DNA of 64,000 nt from an uncultured Chloroflexota bacterium (GCA_913045935.1 CAJWSY010000001.1:46397-110396); one strand, 5' to 3'; positions 40,411 through 62,292 are shown, numbered from the stretch's first letter. Program-made: numbers and translations. Notes: generated by a model not told the origin, from the letters alone.

Positions 40411-42180
40411 TTATTTGGAAATTATAAATATCCCTAAATCAGCTTTATAATTATACTCTTCTTGAACAAATTCTCTTGTATTTGAATTCAAAAATCTACT
40501 GTTAATTATTTTAATTTTTTTCTCACTACAAAATTCTTCAAAATCAACTATAGACATATATCTCTTGTTAGGTGTATTGTACCACTCATAACCTAATACC
40601 CCTTTTGATTTAGGAGCTCTTCCTTCCTCGTAAAGCATATTTCTTAATGGATAATAAGCAAAATTAGGAAAACTCAATATAGCTTTGTCTGCTATTCTGC
40701 ACATTTCGTTTAAAATTTTTTCAACATTATCAATTGCTTGTAGTGTTAAAGATAAAATAGCAGTATCAAATTGTTTATCACCAATTATAGACAAGTCAGA
40801 ATTCAGATCCAAACTCAGAACAGGAATTCCTTTTTGTGAGGCGTGTAATAACTCATCTAAGTTATTATCTATACCAAGTAAAGATCCACCTTGGTTATAA
40901 TTTTTAATATAATCCAGCAAACTTCCGTCCCCGCACCCCATATCTATTATATTTTTAGACCCAATTACAAAATCTAAAATTAATTCATGATCAAAGCTTA
41001 ATGACTTTTTATTTTGTTTGGAATTAGTATTTTCATCCTCAATAAAAATATGTTCTATAAAATTTGAAACATATTTACCATAATAATCTATATCATCTTC
41101 TAACAAAAAAGCATCATGACCACAATTGCTAGGGACTTCAACAAAACTCACTTGTTCTTTAGCCATAAATAAAGCCTTTGTTAATTCTTGTGATAAGCTT
41201 GTGGGGAATAACCAATCACTTGAAAAGCTAATCAAAAACCATTTTAAATTTTTATTTTTTAATTTATTTGATATTGAAATACTATTTTCACCAAGATCAA
41301 ATTTATCCATTGCTTGAGAAAGTACTATATACGAATTAGGATCAAATCTTTCAACAAACTTGTCTCCCTGATACGCCAAATAAGAACCTACGGAGAATTG
41401 TTTTTCAAAATTTGTATCAACATCTTTAGGTTCATATCTATCATCGTCAAATTTGTCACTCATAGATTGTTGAGACAAATAAGTAATATGACCTAACATT
41501 CTTGCAAGAGCCAATCCTGTATCAGGAGATTCTTCTTTGTCATAATATTGCCCACCATAAAAATAAGGATCTCTTCGTATTGCATTTCGCCCTATAATAT
41601 CAAATGCTATACTTTGGCTCGTTAATCTAGAGCCTCCTGCCAAAGACACAACACTTTGAGTTTTTTCTGGAAATTGTATCCCCCACTGAATAGCTTGATA
41701 TGCACCCAAAGATCCGCCGACCACAGAAACTAATTTTTTAATACCTAAATGTTCTATTAATTTGGATTGAACTAAAACCATATCTGATATAGATATTTCT
41801 GGAAAATCTGCTCCCCAATATTTATTAGTTGCACTATTTATTTGATTAGGCCCAGTAGTTCCCATACAACTTCCAAGAACATTAGAAGATATAACAAAAA
41901 ACTTATTTGTATCAATATATTTCCCAGGTCCAACAAAAATGTCCCACCAACCCTCAATATCTGAATCGTCATGTTTTGCAACATGAGAATCTCCGCTAAT
42001 CGCATGACAAACCAATAAAGCATTATTTTTTTCCTTATTTAAAATCCCGTAGGTTTCATAACTAATTTCACAATCACTCAATTCATAACCTGAACTCAAA
42101 GTTAATAATTCAGGAATTTTGTAATGTTTAATATGTTTAGAAAATTGATTTGATCTGTTTTCATCAGAAGATTTATACAT
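40411..42180 (-). CDS. metX: Homoserine O-acetyltransferase (MetX) fused to MetW-like methyltransferase domain
   Basis: MetX: GGSLGAYQAIQWGIQFPE, NCGHDAFLLE. MetW: IIDMGCGDGSLLDYI, FDTAILSLTLQAI, LSFPNFAYYPLRNMLYEEGRAPKSKGVLGYEWYNTPNKRYMSIVDFEEFC. One uninterrupted 589-aa ORF. Confidence 0.92.
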   Translation of the reverse strand: MYKSSDENRSNQFSKHIKHYKIPELLTLSSGYELSDCEISYETYGILNKEKNNALLVCHAISGDSHVAKHDDSDIEGWWDIFVGPGKYIDTNKFFVISSNVLGSCMGTTGPNQINSATNKYWGADFPEISISDMVLVQSKLIEHLGIKKLVSVVGGSLGAYQAIQWGIQFPEKTQSVVSLAGGSRLTSQSIAFDIIGRNAIRRDPYFYGGQYYDKEESPDTGLALARMLGHITYLSQQSMSDKFDDDRYEPKDVDTNFEKQFSVGSYLAYQGDKFVERFDPNSYIVLSQAMDKFDLGENSISISNKLKNKNLKWFLISFSSDWLFPTSLSQELTKALFMAKEQVSFVEVPSNCGHDAFLLEDDIDYYGKYVSNFIEHIFIEDENTNSKQNKKSLSFDHELILDFVIGSKNIIDMGCGDGSLLDYIKNYNQGGSLLGIDNNLDELLHASQKGIPVLSLDLNSDLSIIGDKQFDTAILSLTLQAIDNVEKILNEMCRIADKAILSFPNFAYYPLRNMLYEEGRAPKSKGVLGYEWYNTPNKRYMSIVDFEEFCSEKKIKIINSRFLNSNTREFVQEEYNYKADLGIFIISK

Positions 42181-45558: not shown

Positions 45559-46508
45559 ATTAATCCCTTTTGAGAAATAATCTCATCAACCATTCGCGGG
45601 TCAACTAAACTTCCTGTAATTACAAAGCAAATTTTTGATAAATCAGGAAATTTGTCACGATACTCGAAAAACCCTGCCAATGTTATGGCTGCAGAAGGTT
45701 CTACTAGCATATTTTCATGATCTATAAATGATTTCATTGATCTCATAAGTAATTTCTCTTCAACTAGCAATACATCATCAATAAATTCTTTGACTCGATT
45801 TACAGAATCCAATACAGGTATCCTAACCGATAATCCATCAGCAATAGTATCAGCTGTTTGATTTTCATAATCCTTATTATTTAAAGCTAAAAACATGGAC
45901 GGAGATTCAGAAGGTACTAATCCTATGATTTTTGTACATTTATTTTTATCTTTAATCGCTTTGCCAATTCCTGAAATTAAGGATCCATTTCCGATAGGAA
46001 CAAAAACGTAATCAAATTCAGAATCAACTATTTCAGTACCTATTGTTTCTGCGCCTATATGCATTCCTGGCAATTTACCATCTTCTAAAAATAATAAATC
46101 TGTATCTTCAGCATACTTTTTTGCATTTAACTTGGCATCATCAAAATCTTTTCCGATTTTTACTACTTCTGATCCAGATAATTTTATACGTTCTACTTTA
46201 GATATATTTGCATCTTCGGGTACGAAAATAACAGAATCAATTTTATTTCTTTTACATGCCTCAGCTATTGCTAATCCATAATTACCTGCAGAAGCTGCGA
46301 CAATTTTTTTCACATTTCTATCAGACTTAACTATGTCTCCTATTACACTAAGAGCTCCTCTGATTTTAAAAGATTTAACCGGCGTGCAATCTTCTCTTTT
46401 TAACCAAATATCAGCATTTAACAAATCACTTAATACATTAGCTTTGAACAACGGAGTTGGAGTCCATGGCTCATTATCTATCATTGAATACATGTCATTT
46501 TCATTCAA
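45555..46508 (-). CDS. Threonine/serine dehydratase-like PLP enzyme
   Basis: DIWLKREDCTPVKSFKIRGAL PLP-Lys motif, AASAGNYGLAIA, PIGNGSLISG. Confidence 0.87.
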   Translation of the reverse strand: MNENDMYSMIDNEPWTPTPLFKANVLSDLLNADIWLKREDCTPVKSFKIRGALSVIGDIVKSDRNVKKIVAASAGNYGLAIAEACKRNKIDSVIFVPEDANISKVERIKLSGSEVVKIGKDFDDAKLNAKKYAEDTDLLFLEDGKLPGMHIGAETIGTEIVDSEFDYVFVPIGNGSLISGIGKAIKDKNKCTKIIGLVPSESPSMFLALNNKDYENQTADTIADGLSVRIPVLDSVNRVKEFIDDVLLVEEKLLMRSMKSFIDHENMLVEPSAAITLAGFFEYRDKFPDLSKICFVITGSLVDPRMVDEIISQKGLI

Positions 46509-48687
46509 TTGCTTCTCCTACTTTAAATTGTATGTTTTTATAACTATCTTCAAACTCTCTAATCAGTATATATTTATTCACTGGTACATTCTTGAAATTT
46601 TGAGGTTTATCAGAGCTAGGCCAAATAATTTCTAAATCAACAATATTGTCACAAGTATTTAATCCTATAGTTTGGATAAATGAAGATGAACCAAAACTTC
46701 CTCCATTATCAACTATTGAATTATAAATTATTTCATTTCCACAATTTAGTGTGATTTTTGTACCTACAATTGTTTTTTTATTACTTCTCTTTAATATGAT
46801 TCCAATCCAATTATTACTATTACCAGGATTCTCATATAACAAATTAGTAAACCCATCAGACAAATAAAATCCTCCCATTTGCTCAAATATATCTAAATCA
46901 CCATCAAGATCAAAATCTGCAAATCCTATACCATGTCCTTTTTGTAAATGTCCCAAACCATAAGAATGTGTTTCATCTATAAAATTCAATCCTTTATTAT
47001 TTATATAAAATGCATTTGGGATAATTGAATCTATATATGGGTACCCCGTACCAAAATAAATATCTTCATATCCATCGTTATTTAAATCACCATAATTACC
47101 ACCCATAACAGAGTGCACTTTATTCAAATTTAATTTTTTTGAATTTTCTTCAAATCTTCCTTTTCCGTCATTAGTAAATATTTTTATTGAATAATCTTCA
47201 TCAATATCATCTTGATAACTTTTAATAGATTTTACTATCCCATACTCATATCCGGAAGATAAAATATCTAAATCCCCATCATTATCATAATCCCAAAACC
47301 AAGAAGTAAAACTATAGTAAGGATTAGTAATTTGTAATTCAGTAGCAATATCAACAAATTTATTGTTTCCAAAATTTTTATACAATCTATTTCCACCTGC
47401 ATAATTTGAAACAAATAAATCTATGTAGCCATCATTGTCGTAATCCCCCCAATCCGCAGATTTACAATATCTATTATTTTGGGGCGACAAATTCCCAGAA
47501 ACATCCACAAATTTATTATTTTCATTAATAAATAATTTGCTAGGATATTTGGGAATTTGATTTTCATCAATTTCAGATTCATTGCAACTAAACAAATCTA
47601 AATCGCCATCATTATCATAATCTCCCCAAGCTGCTGATTGTGATGGGTAAGCATAATTCAGCAAACCAACTTCCTCAGTAACATCTGTAAAAGTCAAATC
47701 TTTATTATTTCGTAACAAAGTATTTATCATTTCTCCTTCTTCAGAAAGCCATCCGCCTCTCATGACATATATATCTACATAACCATCATTATTGTAATCT
47801 GTACTTACTATGTTTAACCCCCCCAATTGTTTATTCAAATTTGATTCATTTGTTATTTCTACAAAACCCTCAATACCTCTATTTAAATAAAATTTCATCG
47901 AAGAACATGGATTCCAAGAAGAAGTAATAATATCTGAAAATCCGTCGTTATTAAAATCATCAAATATAACTCCACCAGCCAAATCAACATTATAGATTCC
48001 TAAATTTACCGATATATCTTTAAATTTAATTTTATTATTAGAATTTTTAGTTTTAGAAATATCAATAAGTAAATCTCTGTCAACTAAATCAGGATATGAC
48101 CCAAGGTTCATGTGAGTAACATTTAGTAACCATTTTGCTTTAATGTTTTCAGGATCAATTAAGATCAATTCACTCAAAATATTCAAAGCTTCTTTTGAGT
48201 AATTTGGTTTTTGGTGTGCATAATTTTGATCAATTGGTAACTGACAAATTATAGATCCGCCGGGTATTACACAATTTTCATACTCAGCAGATTTAAGATA
48301 TATCAAAGCTGCAGTTTCGAGTGTTACAATCTTTGACACCTCGTCCATCCTAGCTAAATTATCTTGTTGTAAAAATTTATTTATAATTTTTCTGGAATTT
48401 TCAAAATTCCCCAATCTCAACTCAGAATTAGCTAGTCCTATATTTGCAATCCACAAATTATATTCATCTTTTGCATTATTGATTTTTGTTTGCCAAATCT
48501 TACTTTGATTAGTTCCTATATACTTATTCGAGCTATTTTTTAATTTTTCGCAATATGAATTAATACTATCTAAGACAAAACCTTTATCAGAAATGTTAAA
48601 GTAATTTAAACTAAAATTTAATCCAAATAAAAATATAATAATTACAGACGAAATTACTAACAAATATGTAAATTGCTTATTAAACAT
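46501..48687 (-). CDS. Membrane-anchored CRTAC1-like protein: N-terminal TM, TPR-like helical region, VCBS/FG-GAP repeats, ASPIC/UnbV C-terminus
   Basis: Repeated FDDFNNDGFSDI / DYNNDGYVDIYVMR / GDYDNDGDLDLF / DFDLDGDLDIFEQMGG; C-terminal NNWIGIILKRS...SSFIQTIGL...LEIIWPSS. Confidence 0.88.
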   Translation of the reverse strand: MFNKQFTYLLVISSVIIIFLFGLNFSLNYFNISDKGFVLDSINSYCEKLKNSSNKYIGTNQSKIWQTKINNAKDEYNLWIANIGLANSELRLGNFENSRKIINKFLQQDNLARMDEVSKIVTLETAALIYLKSAEYENCVIPGGSIICQLPIDQNYAHQKPNYSKEALNILSELILIDPENIKAKWLLNVTHMNLGSYPDLVDRDLLIDISKTKNSNNKIKFKDISVNLGIYNVDLAGGVIFDDFNNDGFSDIITSSWNPCSSMKFYLNRGIEGFVEITNESNLNKQLGGLNIVSTDYNNDGYVDIYVMRGGWLSEEGEMINTLLRNNKDLTFTDVTEEVGLLNYAYPSQSAAWGDYDNDGDLDLFSCNESEIDENQIPKYPSKLFINENNKFVDVSGNLSPQNNRYCKSADWGDYDNDGYIDLFVSNYAGGNRLYKNFGNNKFVDIATELQITNPYYSFTSWFWDYDNDGDLDILSSGYEYGIVKSIKSYQDDIDEDYSIKIFTNDGKGRFEENSKKLNLNKVHSVMGGNYGDLNNDGYEDIYFGTGYPYIDSIIPNAFYINNKGLNFIDETHSYGLGHLQKGHGIGFADFDLDGDLDIFEQMGGFYLSDGFTNLLYENPGNSNNWIGIILKRSNKKTIVGTKITLNCGNEIIYNSIVDNGGSFGSSSFIQTIGLNTCDNIVDLEIIWPSSDKPQNFKNVPVNKYILIREFEDSYKNIQFKVGEAIE

Positions 48688-51600
48688 ATGAAACTTTTGA
48701 ATTTAAATATTAATATACACAAAAAAAGATTGATTGGCATAATATTAATCCTGATTTCTACGCCTTTGTTTTTCTTTTTAAACAGGTTCCAAAAGTTGGG
48801 AACTATTAAAGAGGAATTATTTACAGCAGCATCAAGAAAAGGAGAGTGTTTTCAAGGTTTTTGTGTTGGAGGCGATCCTGATGCAACTCTTATTTCTAGG
48901 TGGATTAATTTTTCTTTCGAATACTTAGAGTTAGTTTTATTAGGAATGATTTTTGCTTTTGTCATTGCAGGAATTGTAGAATCTTTTATTTTTCCAAGAA
49001 AAGAAAATACAAGATTTTTCGAACCAGGAATCAAAGGGGCAATAAGGGGTTATATCATTGCTCCCGCACTTAATTTATGTTCTGCCTGCATTGTTCCAGT
49101 TGTAAATTCATTAAAAAACAAAGGGTCTTCCCTTGAATCTGTAATTGCTTTAGCCCAAGGATCCTCTACATTAAATTTCTTATCAATAATAATGATTTTT
49201 ACAATATTTAGCTCTGAATTAGGTTTGAATAGAATTATAGCAGGCGCAATAAGTGTATTTTTATTTGGACCTATAATCTCTCGATTAACATACGGATTAA
49301 ATCAAAAAAATGAAATTCCCAATACTATTCCATCTTTATCTATAGAAAAAAACATTTCTTTTACCAAATCCATCAAAGAAGGATTAAAAGATTTTTTCGA
49401 TATAACAAAATCAAATGTAATTAAACTAGGGCCAATAATGATAATAGCTGGATTTATAGCCGGTTTAATAATTCAATTTCTATCTGCGGAAACCATCAAT
49501 GAATATTTAGGAAATAATTTTAAAGGAGTAATCATTGCTAGCACTATAGGCGTTCTAATTAATGTTCCTCTGTTATTTGAAATCCCTTTAGTAGTAACAT
49601 TACTTTTACTTGGAATGGGGATAGCCCCGGCATCAACGTTATTATTCACAGCTGCATCAGGTGGTCCAATTACATTTTGGGGACTAGGAAAAGTTCTGCC
49701 CAAAAGATCTGTTTTTTACTATGCTTGTTTAATTTGGATATTGGGTGTAATCACCGGATCAATTTCGATTTTCATGTCTGGTAATAATATTAGTTTGGGA
49801 ATAAAACTTACAGACAATGAACCGATAATAAAGCAAACAACATTTAACAATGATTCAGCAAATAACTTAAACAACAATAATATAAATTTATCATCTTATA
49901 CAGAAAATCAAAATTATGATAATTACGAATTTAAACCATTTAATCAATTAACATATGAACATTTCAATGGGAATACAGAAGTTTGGAATTATAGACCAGG
50001 AGTAGTGATATTTGATTTCGACAGAGATAGTGACATGGATTTTCTTATAACAAACGGCAATGAATATTCTAATTTTTTATATCAAAATGATGGTCAGAAT
50101 AAGTTTACAGATATTTCAATTGATGCAGGCTTAGGAGCTAAAAATTTTAATGCAAGTGGCGCTGTAGCGTGTGACATAAATAACGATGGATACCAAGATT
50201 TATACATTGGAGGAAAAGGATTCAATGGTGACGGACTAGATTTTAGATCTTTGCAAGATAGTAAAGAATTTATTGGTATAGAAGACAGATTATATCTAAA
50301 TTTGAAAAACGGAAAATTCAAAGATATTACCAAGTCAGCATTTGGTAACAATTTAAATTACAGATCTGCTAGCAGCATGATATGCGCTGATATAAATAAT
50401 GATGGATATTTAGATATTTATGTTACAAATCTAATTGATGAAGATTTTTTTATGTCGAGTCTTTTTTGGCCATCACATCCAGGTCATTACAACCTCCTAT
50501 ACCAAAACAATGGTAACGAAACATTTAAAGAAGTATCTAAAGAAGCCGGAGTCCAAGGACCAGAAGTAATAATGCTAAATCCAGAAGGAAAAGGAATATA
50601 TTTTAGCGACCAAAATGGTAAAGAATATATGGGATTTAATCCTTTGGTAAAAGATAAAAATTCTCATATCGTCGGAGATCCCACAGGTCCAACTCATGCT
50701 GCAGTATTTTTTGATCATGATGGTGATGGAGATCAAGATTTATGGGTAGCAAGTGATGGAGATCAACTGCATGTCTATAGAAATGATTCTTCAAAAGAAA
50801 AAATATTATTTAATCATGTTAGTAAAGAACTCAATTTAAATATAATAGGAAACTGGATGGGTTTTGCTGTATCTGATTTTAACAATGATTTAATTGAGGA
50901 TGTATTTATAACCAACGCAGGCCCCCATCAAAGAATTGAAAGAAGTGGTATAAATAGCCCTACAATTAAACCTGGCGGAGATTGTAAATATCACGAGCTA
51001 CATGAACTTGGATCCTGTTTACATTTATTTTTAATAAATCAAAAAAATAACAACTCTTTTGAAAACAAAACAGAAAAAATTCATGTTATACCATCTCCTT
51101 ATCTGCCTGCTGAAGCTACTATTAAAAATATTAAAAAAGAATCAAAAATACCTAAAGGCTTGGGAGCGTACGATTTTGGGTACGGCGTTACAGCTTTTGA
51201 TTTCAATAACGACACAATAAAAGATTTATATTGGCTTGGATCTGAAGTAGGTAGAGGTGAAGGTCCTGGTGGTAATATATATCCTTCAGCAGGCAGAATG
51301 TTGATGGGATTACCTAATTTAAAGTATGAAGATATAACTGTAAGAGCTCAACTTCTAGACATACAGGGAATCAATTACAATAAATATTTTTCAAATTTAA
51401 AGCCAAATGAAATCCCTAATGAGAAATATAATTTAAAATATAAAGTCCACACTAAATACCATGAAAATGGCAAAGGATTAGCTCACGGAGATTTGAATGG
51501 GGATGGATATGTTGATTTAATCGGTACAAATAGCAGTGGTCCAGTTTGGTCTGGTACTCTCGATGATGCTCCAGGACCATTCTTTGTATGGATTAATGGA

Positions 51601-51915
51601 GGAGGTAATAATAATTGGATAAATATTAAACTTACAGGAAGACAAGGCATTGATAAAACAGGTAGTAACTCAGATGGAGTCGGAGCTAAAGTCTTTATAG
51701 AAAGTAAAGATGCTAATAATAACAAATCTATACAAATGCAAGAAGTAAGAGCTGGCTCAAGTTATTTATCGATGAATTCAATAAATTTAGAATTTGGGTT
51801 AGGAGATATTGAAATAATAGATAAAATTACTGTAATATGGCCAAGTGGAATTACTCAAATACTCAAAAACATTAATTCCAATCAACAAATTAATATAATT
51901 GAATCACAAAATTAA
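48688..51915 (+). CDS. Fusion protein: DUF318/ArsP-like permease plus VCBS/FG-GAP repeats plus ASPIC/UnbV domain
   Basis: N-terminal TM region with NLCSACIVPVVNSLKNKG and FTAASGGPITFWGLGKVLPKRS; then DFDRDSDMDFLITNG, DINNDGYQDLYIGG, FDHDGDGDQDLWVASDG, DLNGDGYVDLIGTN; C-terminal NNWINIKLTGRQG...VWPSG-type ASPIC (VIWPSGITQ). Start placed at ATG 48688 rather than TTG 48673. Confidence 0.87.
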   Translation: MKLLNLNINIHKKRLIGIILILISTPLFFFLNRFQKLGTIKEELFTAASRKGECFQGFCVGGDPDATLISRWINFSFEYLELVLLGMIFAFVIAGIVESFIFPRKENTRFFEPGIKGAIRGYIIAPALNLCSACIVPVVNSLKNKGSSLESVIALAQGSSTLNFLSIIMIFTIFSSELGLNRIIAGAISVFLFGPIISRLTYGLNQKNEIPNTIPSLSIEKNISFTKSIKEGLKDFFDITKSNVIKLGPIMIIAGFIAGLIIQFLSAETINEYLGNNFKGVIIASTIGVLINVPLLFEIPLVVTLLLLGMGIAPASTLLFTAASGGPITFWGLGKVLPKRSVFYYACLIWILGVITGSISIFMSGNNISLGIKLTDNEPIIKQTTFNNDSANNLNNNNINLSSYTENQNYDNYEFKPFNQLTYEHFNGNTEVWNYRPGVVIFDFDRDSDMDFLITNGNEYSNFLYQNDGQNKFTDISIDAGLGAKNFNASGAVACDINNDGYQDLYIGGKGFNGDGLDFRSLQDSKEFIGIEDRLYLNLKNGKFKDITKSAFGNNLNYRSASSMICADINNDGYLDIYVTNLIDEDFFMSSLFWPSHPGHYNLLYQNNGNETFKEVSKEAGVQGPEVIMLNPEGKGIYFSDQNGKEYMGFNPLVKDKNSHIVGDPTGPTHAAVFFDHDGDGDQDLWVASDGDQLHVYRNDSSKEKILFNHVSKELNLNIIGNWMGFAVSDFNNDLIEDVFITNAGPHQRIERSGINSPTIKPGGDCKYHELHELGSCLHLFLINQKNNNSFENKTEKIHVIPSPYLPAEATIKNIKKESKIPKGLGAYDFGYGVTAFDFNNDTIKDLYWLGSEVGRGEGPGGNIYPSAGRMLMGLPNLKYEDITVRAQLLDIQGINYNKYFSNLKPNEIPNEKYNLKYKVHTKYHENGKGLAHGDLNGDGYVDLIGTNSSGPVWSGTLDDAPGPFFVWINGGGNNNWINIKLTGRQGIDKTGSNSDGVGAKVFIESKDANNNKSIQMQEVRAGSSYLSMNSINLEFGLGDIEIIDKITVIWPSGITQILKNINSNQQINIIESQN

Positions 51916-60945: not shown

Positions 60946-62292
60946 ATGCCCAAAAGAAATATATTGAGATACACAGCTTTACTAATGGCAATAGCATTTG
61001 TTGCATTGCCAGCAAAACTAATTCATGCAGCAACAGTTTCAGGAAGTGGCTCTGCAATGATTTCAACAGGATCATCTGCAGGTAATACTTTAACTATAAG
61101 TATGACAGGAGTTACTCCGCCAACAGGTTCAATGAAATACAATGCGTACTTGCTTGATGATTCTATGAAGAAAACAAGTATAGGTGCAGTTTCTGTAGAC
61201 GAAGATGGTGCAGCAAAACTATCTTACAATTCAGATTCTGATATTTTGCTTAATTTTAGAAGATTAGAAGTTAGAGAAGAATCCGGAGCATCTTCTAGAA
61301 TTGTTTTTGCAAACACTATTCCAGGGCAAGATGTAAAAAACATACGAGCTCTTGTGAATAAAGATTCGGAAATCGCTGCTCTTCAGGGTTTGCTAGATAC
61401 AGCTATCACCCATGCGACTGCAGGAAAAAATGCAAAAACAACTGCAGATCTAGTTCTAAATGCAAAAAAAATGATGGACGTTATTAAAGGTAATGTTGGA
61501 AACGGAGTTACCGCACACATTGATCTATCTAAAGCAGCCATTACAAAAGCCATGGGTACTAATATTACAGGCTCATATGTTTACGATAATGGAGTAACAG
61601 CAGGTAATGCAATTGACATAATTCAAAGCAATGCTGATGCAGCAGTACTATCTGCTACACAAGCTCAGACTTTTACAAACTTTGAAACAGGTGCAATACT
61701 TATGAATGATGCTCTTAACTCTCTTATGAGAGCTAAAAATCAAGGTACAGTATTAGCAATGTCAGAAGCATATCAAATGGGATCGTTTAAATTAACAAAA
61801 CTAGAAGATATATATACAACAATTAAAAATGATACTAGACTAACTAAATTAGCTTCAGCGGTAAATACGGCTGGGATGTCTTCTGCTCTTTCTGCAACAG
61901 GTCCTATGACGCTATTAGCACCAACAGATACTGCCATTACTTCTTACGGAGATGACAAGTGGGATAAGCTATCATCTAATTCAGCTAATTTAAAAAGAGC
62001 TCTAGAAGTTCATGTCCTAGACAATCACATCTTGTCAGGTGACTCAAAAATAGATATTAGAGTTTTGGACAGTAACCAAGCTCAATACACTGCAACTGAT
62101 ATCGAAGCTAGTAATGGAATAATTCACCTAGTTGATACAGTTATCGCTAGAAGAGGTCCATTCCCTGGATTACCAAGTGTAGGATCTTACGATACAAATA
62201 TTCAAAATTTGGCATACATTGTACTTTCAATGGGTATTATGCTAATAACAATATCTGGATTTATAAGATTGAATTACAGAAAAAATAACTAG
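60946..62292 (+). CDS. Secreted fasciclin (FAS1)-domain protein with C-terminal sorting-like signal
   Basis: Signal peptide (ALLMAIAFVALPAKLIHAA), FAS1-like TLLAPTDTAI...LKRALEVHVLDNHIL...IEASNGIIHLVDTVI, then LPSVG, TM and RLNYRKNN tail. GAGGTG RBS upstream. Confidence 0.82.
   Translation: MPKRNILRYTALLMAIAFVALPAKLIHAATVSGSGSAMISTGSSAGNTLTISMTGVTPPTGSMKYNAYLLDDSMKKTSIGAVSVDEDGAAKLSYNSDSDILLNFRRLEVREESGASSRIVFANTIPGQDVKNIRALVNKDSEIAALQGLLDTAITHATAGKNAKTTADLVLNAKKMMDVIKGNVGNGVTAHIDLSKAAITKAMGTNITGSYVYDNGVTAGNAIDIIQSNADAAVLSATQAQTFTNFETGAILMNDALNSLMRAKNQGTVLAMSEAYQMGSFKLTKLEDIYTTIKNDTRLTKLASAVNTAGMSSALSATGPMTLLAPTDTAITSYGDDKWDKLSSNSANLKRALEVHVLDNHILSGDSKIDIRVLDSNQAQYTATDIEASNGIIHLVDTVIARRGPFPGLPSVGSYDTNIQNLAYIVLSMGIMLITISGFIRLNYRKNN

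Follow-up and report, generated by a model that had tools for sequence, protein, structure and literature searches.

A permease fused to a CRTAC/ASPIC-type propeller in a divergent gene pair of an uncultured Chloroflexota bacterium

ArsP permeases (PF03773, TC 2.A.119) export trivalent organoarsenicals and a C(S/T)C motif has been reported as universal in ArsP (PMC4435449), whilst SO_0444 (NF033936), which along with SaoE (NF040736) belongs to the same superfamily, exports Cu/Zn (PMC3219624). The subject here is a gene related to these permeases, termed P, and its divergent neighbour M, both carried on a 64,000-nucleotide stretch of DNA (the window) from an uncultured Chloroflexota bacterium (GCA_913045935.1 CAJWSY010000001.1:46397-110396), the source genome being 1.33 Mb in size and 76% complete. 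A SAR202-like placement of the bacterium is a guess. In P a PF03773 permease is joined to a propeller of the type found in the human cartilage protein CRTAC1 (PDB 9etn) and the bacterial CRTAC1 family, where FG-GAP repeats with Dx[DN]xDG-type loops are followed by an UnbV_ASPIC domain. Bacterial CRTAC/ASPIC propeller proteins are common. In the literature that was searched, with most subscription journals falling outside, no function was found for them and no description of a permease fusion, and the combination of permease and propeller appears to be undescribed in the searchable literature.

Domain content and predicted topology of P

The features of P, with residues counted in its product of 1075 amino acids (aa), are:
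48688-51915, plus strand: gene P, encoding an additional N-terminal helix and the eight of the PF03773 permease, then a linker, a seven-motif FG-GAP propeller and an UnbV_ASPIC end (Pfam, hydropathy)
48847-48864, plus strand: CFQGFC motif, residues 54-59, in the acidic loop between the first and second membrane segments, predicted to lie outside; cysteines invariant in the clade
48928-49764, plus strand: ArsP_1 (PF03773) permease domain, residues 81-359 (Pfam E = 6.6e-24)
49078-49089, plus strand: CSAC motif, residues 131-134, at the site of C(S/T)C in ArsP/YraQ relatives (alignment; PMC4435449)
50014-51522, plus strand: FG-GAP propeller, residues 443-945, with seven Dx[DN]x[DS]-type loops (Pfam; match to human CRTAC1 9etn, E = 1.4e-20)
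51676-51891, plus strand: UnbV_ASPIC domain, residues 997-1068 (Pfam E = 4.1e-18)

It is apparent that ArsP_1, FG-GAP and UnbV_ASPIC all exceed their Pfam cut-offs in the single open frame of P, with the PF03773 score of 85 bits (gathering cut-off 32.3) placing it in that superfamily. A first-pass annotation, made from the sequence alone, had assigned VCBS and ASPIC/UnbV domains to both proteins; Pfam confirms FG-GAP and UnbV_ASPIC, with both domains above cut-off in P and in M, which makes each of the CRTAC1/ASPIC type, but the permease at residues 81-359 of P had been overlooked. Its description of the pair as a surface system fits the propeller halves, whilst P itself is a polytopic permease fusion and not an anchored surface protein.

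By profile score P belongs to the PF03773 and CRTAC/ASPIC families, but by their defining tests it is not an ArsP, SaoE or SO_0444 protein. The Pfam domain, the eight-helix core and a membrane cysteine motif at the equal position are shared with ArsP, yet P, like the aligned members of its clade, has CSAC where ArsP is defined by C(S/T)C, and has in addition the extra N-terminal helix, the CFQGFC loop and the C-terminal propeller, with no ars context seen. SaoE is the best NCBIfam match at 65.3 bits (cut-off 325) and SO_0444 gives 29.9 bits (cut-off 300), both below the equivalog thresholds. The profiles of P and M both match human CRTAC1, with seven loops in each propeller that are of the calcium type by sequence, and P differs from CRTAC1 in carrying the propeller at the end of a polytopic permease.

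The cysteines of the outer loop (C54, C59) and of the membrane motif (C131, C134) are invariant in a 26-sequence alignment of the clade, and hardly any variation is seen in the transport-core motifs CSAC, NVPLxFEIPLV and GGPxTFW, which would be hard to explain if the membrane part was a mere anchor. Stand-alone PF03773 relatives mostly have C(S/T)C or CTCC and lack CFQGFC, with a Vibrio sequence having CSAA. No sequence relative of the permease clade was found in the PDB.

The family-average hydropathy of the aligned clade gives P nine membrane segments, of which the additional one spans residues 14-32 and the other eight fall within the PF03773 region. An initial hydropathy count had given eight helices, which would place the propeller inside; it was rejected as the family average adds a ninth segment at residues 315-333. 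The basic parts are the N-terminus, the loop at 102-120 and the loop at 334-344 that precedes the last segment, with the loop at 33-82 that carries CFQGFC being acidic. Because there are nine helices, a basic N-terminus and a basic loop before the last helix, the positive-inside rule predicts, short of proof, an N-terminus inside the cell and a propeller outside, with the CFQGFC loop also outside.

Distribution and architecture of the permease clade

The permease profile detects the family in 60 of the order's 250 genomes, spread over 25 of 97 genera, and elsewhere in the phylum the clade was found in genus g131 only, among the genomes sampled. About 58 copies are in frames of at least 800 aa and 7 stand alone (65 interpretable copies in 60 genomes by table count), with about five more truncated or broken. 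An assembly artefact was rejected as the source of the fusion because fusions are also present in single-contig genomes and complete plasmids.

The C-termini that were inspected comprise CRTAC type A, CRTAC type B, TolB-like PD40-TIG-CRTAC, TIG-CRTAC and, in one case, a repeat of beta-helix-like type. In three genomes (L149, L150 and L151, in G437, G445 and G441) fusions of about 1260 aa have the permease followed by a PD40/TolB-like propeller, IPT/TIG and CRTAC, and in G474 (L155:5775-8144) a glycine-rich repeat, judged by eye to be beta-helix-like, replaces CRTAC, with Pfam naming the permease only. At another locus (L122, G006:C19:6000-24000) at least four CRTAC-type genes are clustered, two of which are permease fusions.

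Permease and propeller have, by the trees and gene arrangements, been joined and parted repeatedly. In a tree built from 52 permease domains, 6 changes of the type-A label are required, 4 or more of them forced, and the type A (L082) and type B (L117) fusions of a single genome, G014, are sisters on it; on the CRTAC-A tree the fused or free label needs 9 changes, at least 5 of them forced. In G037 permease and propeller are encoded apart, by neighbouring genes. This repeated joining and parting argues for cooperation between permease and propeller. A stand-alone ArsP_1 gene in Gemmatimonadota (L036) lies one gene from CRTAC genes, but was not used as support given the very long branch of its permease.

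The fusion is not limited to Chloroflexota. A plasmid search found it in Rhodobacterales, with eight records that include Phaeobacter sp. G2, Leisingera, Tateyamaria, Tropicibacter and Roseovarius, and in the one protein tested the Pfam order of the three domains is the same as in P. BLASTP of P against the roseobacter fusion gives E = 1e-24 over residues 9-508 at about 22% identity, running from the first helix into the propeller, so the homology is co-linear. The roseobacter permeases group with the Chloroflexota clade apart from the stand-alone ones, although with weak support (83/55) and long branches. UWQ93519.1 and its relatives are like P in domain order and in having a CxxC in the membrane, but have CVNC or CANC, lack CFQGFC and have other neighbours. 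The present annotation of UWQ93519.1, "FG-GAP-like repeat-containing protein", leaves the permease unmentioned and thus hides that half of the protein. No match to the roseobacter fusion was found in phage records. On these plasmids (L208-L213) the recurring neighbours include a hypothetical protein of about 140 aa, tail-fibre-domain proteins, SEL1 repeats, giant surface proteins and gsp genes.

Possible roles of the fusion

Set beside the observed domain content, fusion, recurrence, domain swapping, motif conservation and Dpp/Opp clustering (below), the favoured reading, held with about even confidence, is that P is a transporter whose extracytoplasmic domain, part of the same chain, serves in capture or gating, with M as a looser partner. 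That the characterised PF03773 members, ArsP and SO_0444, are exporters is in keeping with it. The nine helices would form a membrane unit, as hydropathy and charge suggest, with the chain exiting after the last helix and the calcium-type, putatively seven-bladed CRTAC/ASPIC propeller sitting outside. Here the propeller may capture a substrate, or dock a carrier or ligand, and deliver to or gate the permease, and by analogy would do in cis the job of the binding proteins of ATP-binding cassette (ABC) transporters. The outer cysteine pair of CFQGFC probably cooperates with the propeller, whilst the intramembrane pair of CSAC probably lies where a thiol-binding or soft-metal/metalloid-like substrate would pass. 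As a second anchored propeller, with a TPR-like scaffold, M may act beside the same machinery.

The comparison with importers is prompted by gene neighbourhoods. Dpp/Opp ABC genes are within 4 kb of 29 of 68 loci compared to 2 of 40 control stretches, these being arbitrary stretches from the same or related genomes, with the p value of 1.6e-5 indicative only as the 68 loci are partly non-independent; Dpp/Opp-type permease genes are within 1.5 kb of 16 of 68 loci and 1 of 40 controls. In three genomes of genus g30 (L083, L158, L159) SBP5-DppB-DppC genes are followed by a type-A CRTAC gene divergent from M. Dpp/Opp-type importers thus resemble the system in pairing extracytoplasmic binding with a membrane permease, and in the order their genes often adjoin CRTAC and permease-CRTAC genes, but P has no ATPase and is from another transporter superfamily.

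A built-in capture or gating domain is preferred to the somewhat unlikely alternative that a reused permease anchors, assembles or signals for an extracellular beta-domain, in adhesion or the building of surface structures, with transport lost or secondary. That one membrane domain carries such different beta-rich ends would suit a platform or receptor of this kind, whilst the near-invariant intramembrane motifs of the aligned clade and the Dpp/Opp association in Chloroflexota speak for transport. Several observations nevertheless weigh against a transporter. A copy in G005 (L085:5446-11972) keeps ECFQGFC, several helices and CRTAC but has lost CSAC and the match to PF03773, and copies in G048 and G012 (L124:4611-7238; L136:4756-7419) keep CFQGGC, seven hydrophobic segments and CRTAC, again with no CSAC or PF03773 match, so that in degenerate copies the predicted extracytoplasmic part outlives the transport motif. 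The roseobacter fusions adjoin adhesin and polysaccharide genes and not importers, their neighbours being giant Ig-like or DUF11 proteins, tail-fibre-domain proteins, polysaccharide export, sulfotransferases and type II secretion. Several fusions, those of the window's genus included, have no transporter genes nearby, and AlphaFold gives a mean predicted local distance difference test score (pLDDT) of only 28 for the propeller half (two sequences only) and 36 for the permease half (the window and one ortholog only). The persistence of CxQGxC and CRTAC without CSAC in G005, G048 and G012 suggests that the outer cysteine loop works with the propeller and not with transport alone; in G026 and G059 (L102:3702-6017, L104:6918-9233), genomes where the permease is stand-alone, free CRTAC proteins have a related motif, CVQGVC, close to the N-terminus. 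It is tentatively possible that the fusions, found in two phyla or more, are a new class with a modified ArsP-type permease as the standard chassis for swappable extracellular beta-domains, whether as a transporter with a built-in binding protein or a transporter turned receptor; if so, the degenerate copies would mark stages in the change of a transporter into a receptor. The fusion to a transporter, its repeated fusion and fission and the Dpp/Opp clustering tie the propellers to transport or surface work, and with roseobacter homologs in cultured strains their role in bacteria is testable. 

Two further explanations are held to be less probable again. Membership of PF03773, the weak matches to SaoE and SO_0444, and the paired cysteines in loop and membrane could point to an ArsP/SO_0444-type pump for the efflux of metals or metalloids, in which the extracellular domain would be an accessory chelator. 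This is improbable given that the C(S/T)C of ArsP is absent and the SaoE and SO_0444 scores are far below their cut-offs, and among those neighbours of the pair that were profiled none was recognised as ars, merR or zntR-like. Even less probable is the proposal of the first-pass annotation that P and M are a dedicated, co-inherited and mutually regulated two-component surface system. The divergent pair is kept in all five genomes of the genus (in G004 contig ends split the M gene), a type-A CRTAC gene is paired with an M homolog, without a permease, in the same three g30 genomes (divergent) and in G043 (L077, tandem), and codon use at the junction of P and M is conserved. The last was measured from same-amino-acid codons in the first 20 positions of both genes against control genes, with control counts being summed fractions: 21 of 23 codons are identical to those of G002 (controls 75/130, p = 0.002), but for G004 the excess is not significant (28/32, controls 156/217, p = 0.08) and some control genes are equally conserved, thus the fit to signals embedded in coding sequence is suggestive only. 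Beyond the genus the co-inheritance breaks down. The M family is in 18 of the 250 genomes and 7 of the 97 genera, compared to 25 genera for the permease, the two are mostly unlinked, and a permease fusion adjoins the M family in the window's genus only; the synteny check that was proposed, of whether homologs are usually unpaired, thus partly goes against a dedicated pair. The two-gene system is a local arrangement and the permease-propeller fusion is the broader finding. In a single-protein search the nearest named match was PAHZ01000012.1 (Chloroflexi bacterium isolate NAT190, 86% identical), with otherwise distant propellers only.

M, the junction and other features of the window

The features of M and of the junction are:
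46501-48687, minus strand: gene M, 728 aa, membrane-anchored with TPR-like, FG-GAP and ASPIC regions (Pfam, PDB profile, hydropathy)
48607-48663, minus strand: N-terminal hydrophobic anchor of M, residues 9-27 (hydropathy)
48094-48426, minus strand: TPR-like region of M, about residues 88-198
46885-47958, minus strand: FG-GAP propeller of M, residues 244-601, seven loops (Pfam, motif count)
46567-46767, minus strand: UnbV_ASPIC domain of M, residues 641-707 (Pfam E = 1.1e-9)
48685-48690: CATATG, the abutting start codons of the pair (sequence and genus comparison)
48634-48639, plus strand: TATAAT hexamer lying within the coding sequence of M, a -10 candidate for P; weak, being AT-rich with no -35 found

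The TPR-like region that had been noted in M is weak in this copy, but is clearer in orthologs and in a PDB profile match. The orthologs of M in genus g30 resemble lipoproteins rather than carrying a hydrophobic anchor.

The abutting starts described earlier are borne out, with the ATG of M at 48687 and that of P at 48688 leaving zero gap, as are the hydrophobic segments soon after the Met of each protein. A TTG at 48673, to which the ORF finder can extend the frame, is an alternative start for P and would overlap the M gene by 15 bp. Elsewhere in the window divergent genes are 23-288 bp apart, so zero spacing is locally unusual. CATATG is kept in three of the five genomes of the genus (G000, G002 and G004), whilst in G001 and G003 the pair is separated by a 101-bp gap and M starts with TTG/GTG; zero spacing is therefore the state of a subclade inside the genus. 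The reported absence of a Shine-Dalgarno-like motif before either gene holds, but the idea that this is special was rejected, as the scan finds such a motif before no more than about 20 of the window's 48 genes. The TATAAT hexamer is common to G000, G002 and G004, although a promoter scan found sites to be no commoner than in shuffles (4 vs 2.7).

Downstream of M, and overlapping it by 8 bp (46501-46508), is a gene for a PLP-dependent enzyme and then an oxidoreductase gene, an order that is kept across the genus. Elsewhere in the window a single open reading frame at 40411-42180 has an alpha/beta hydrolase domain followed by MetW (Pfam) and is perhaps a MetX-MetW fusion, and one of 448 aa at 60946-62292 with a fasciclin domain is likely to encode a surface adhesion protein.

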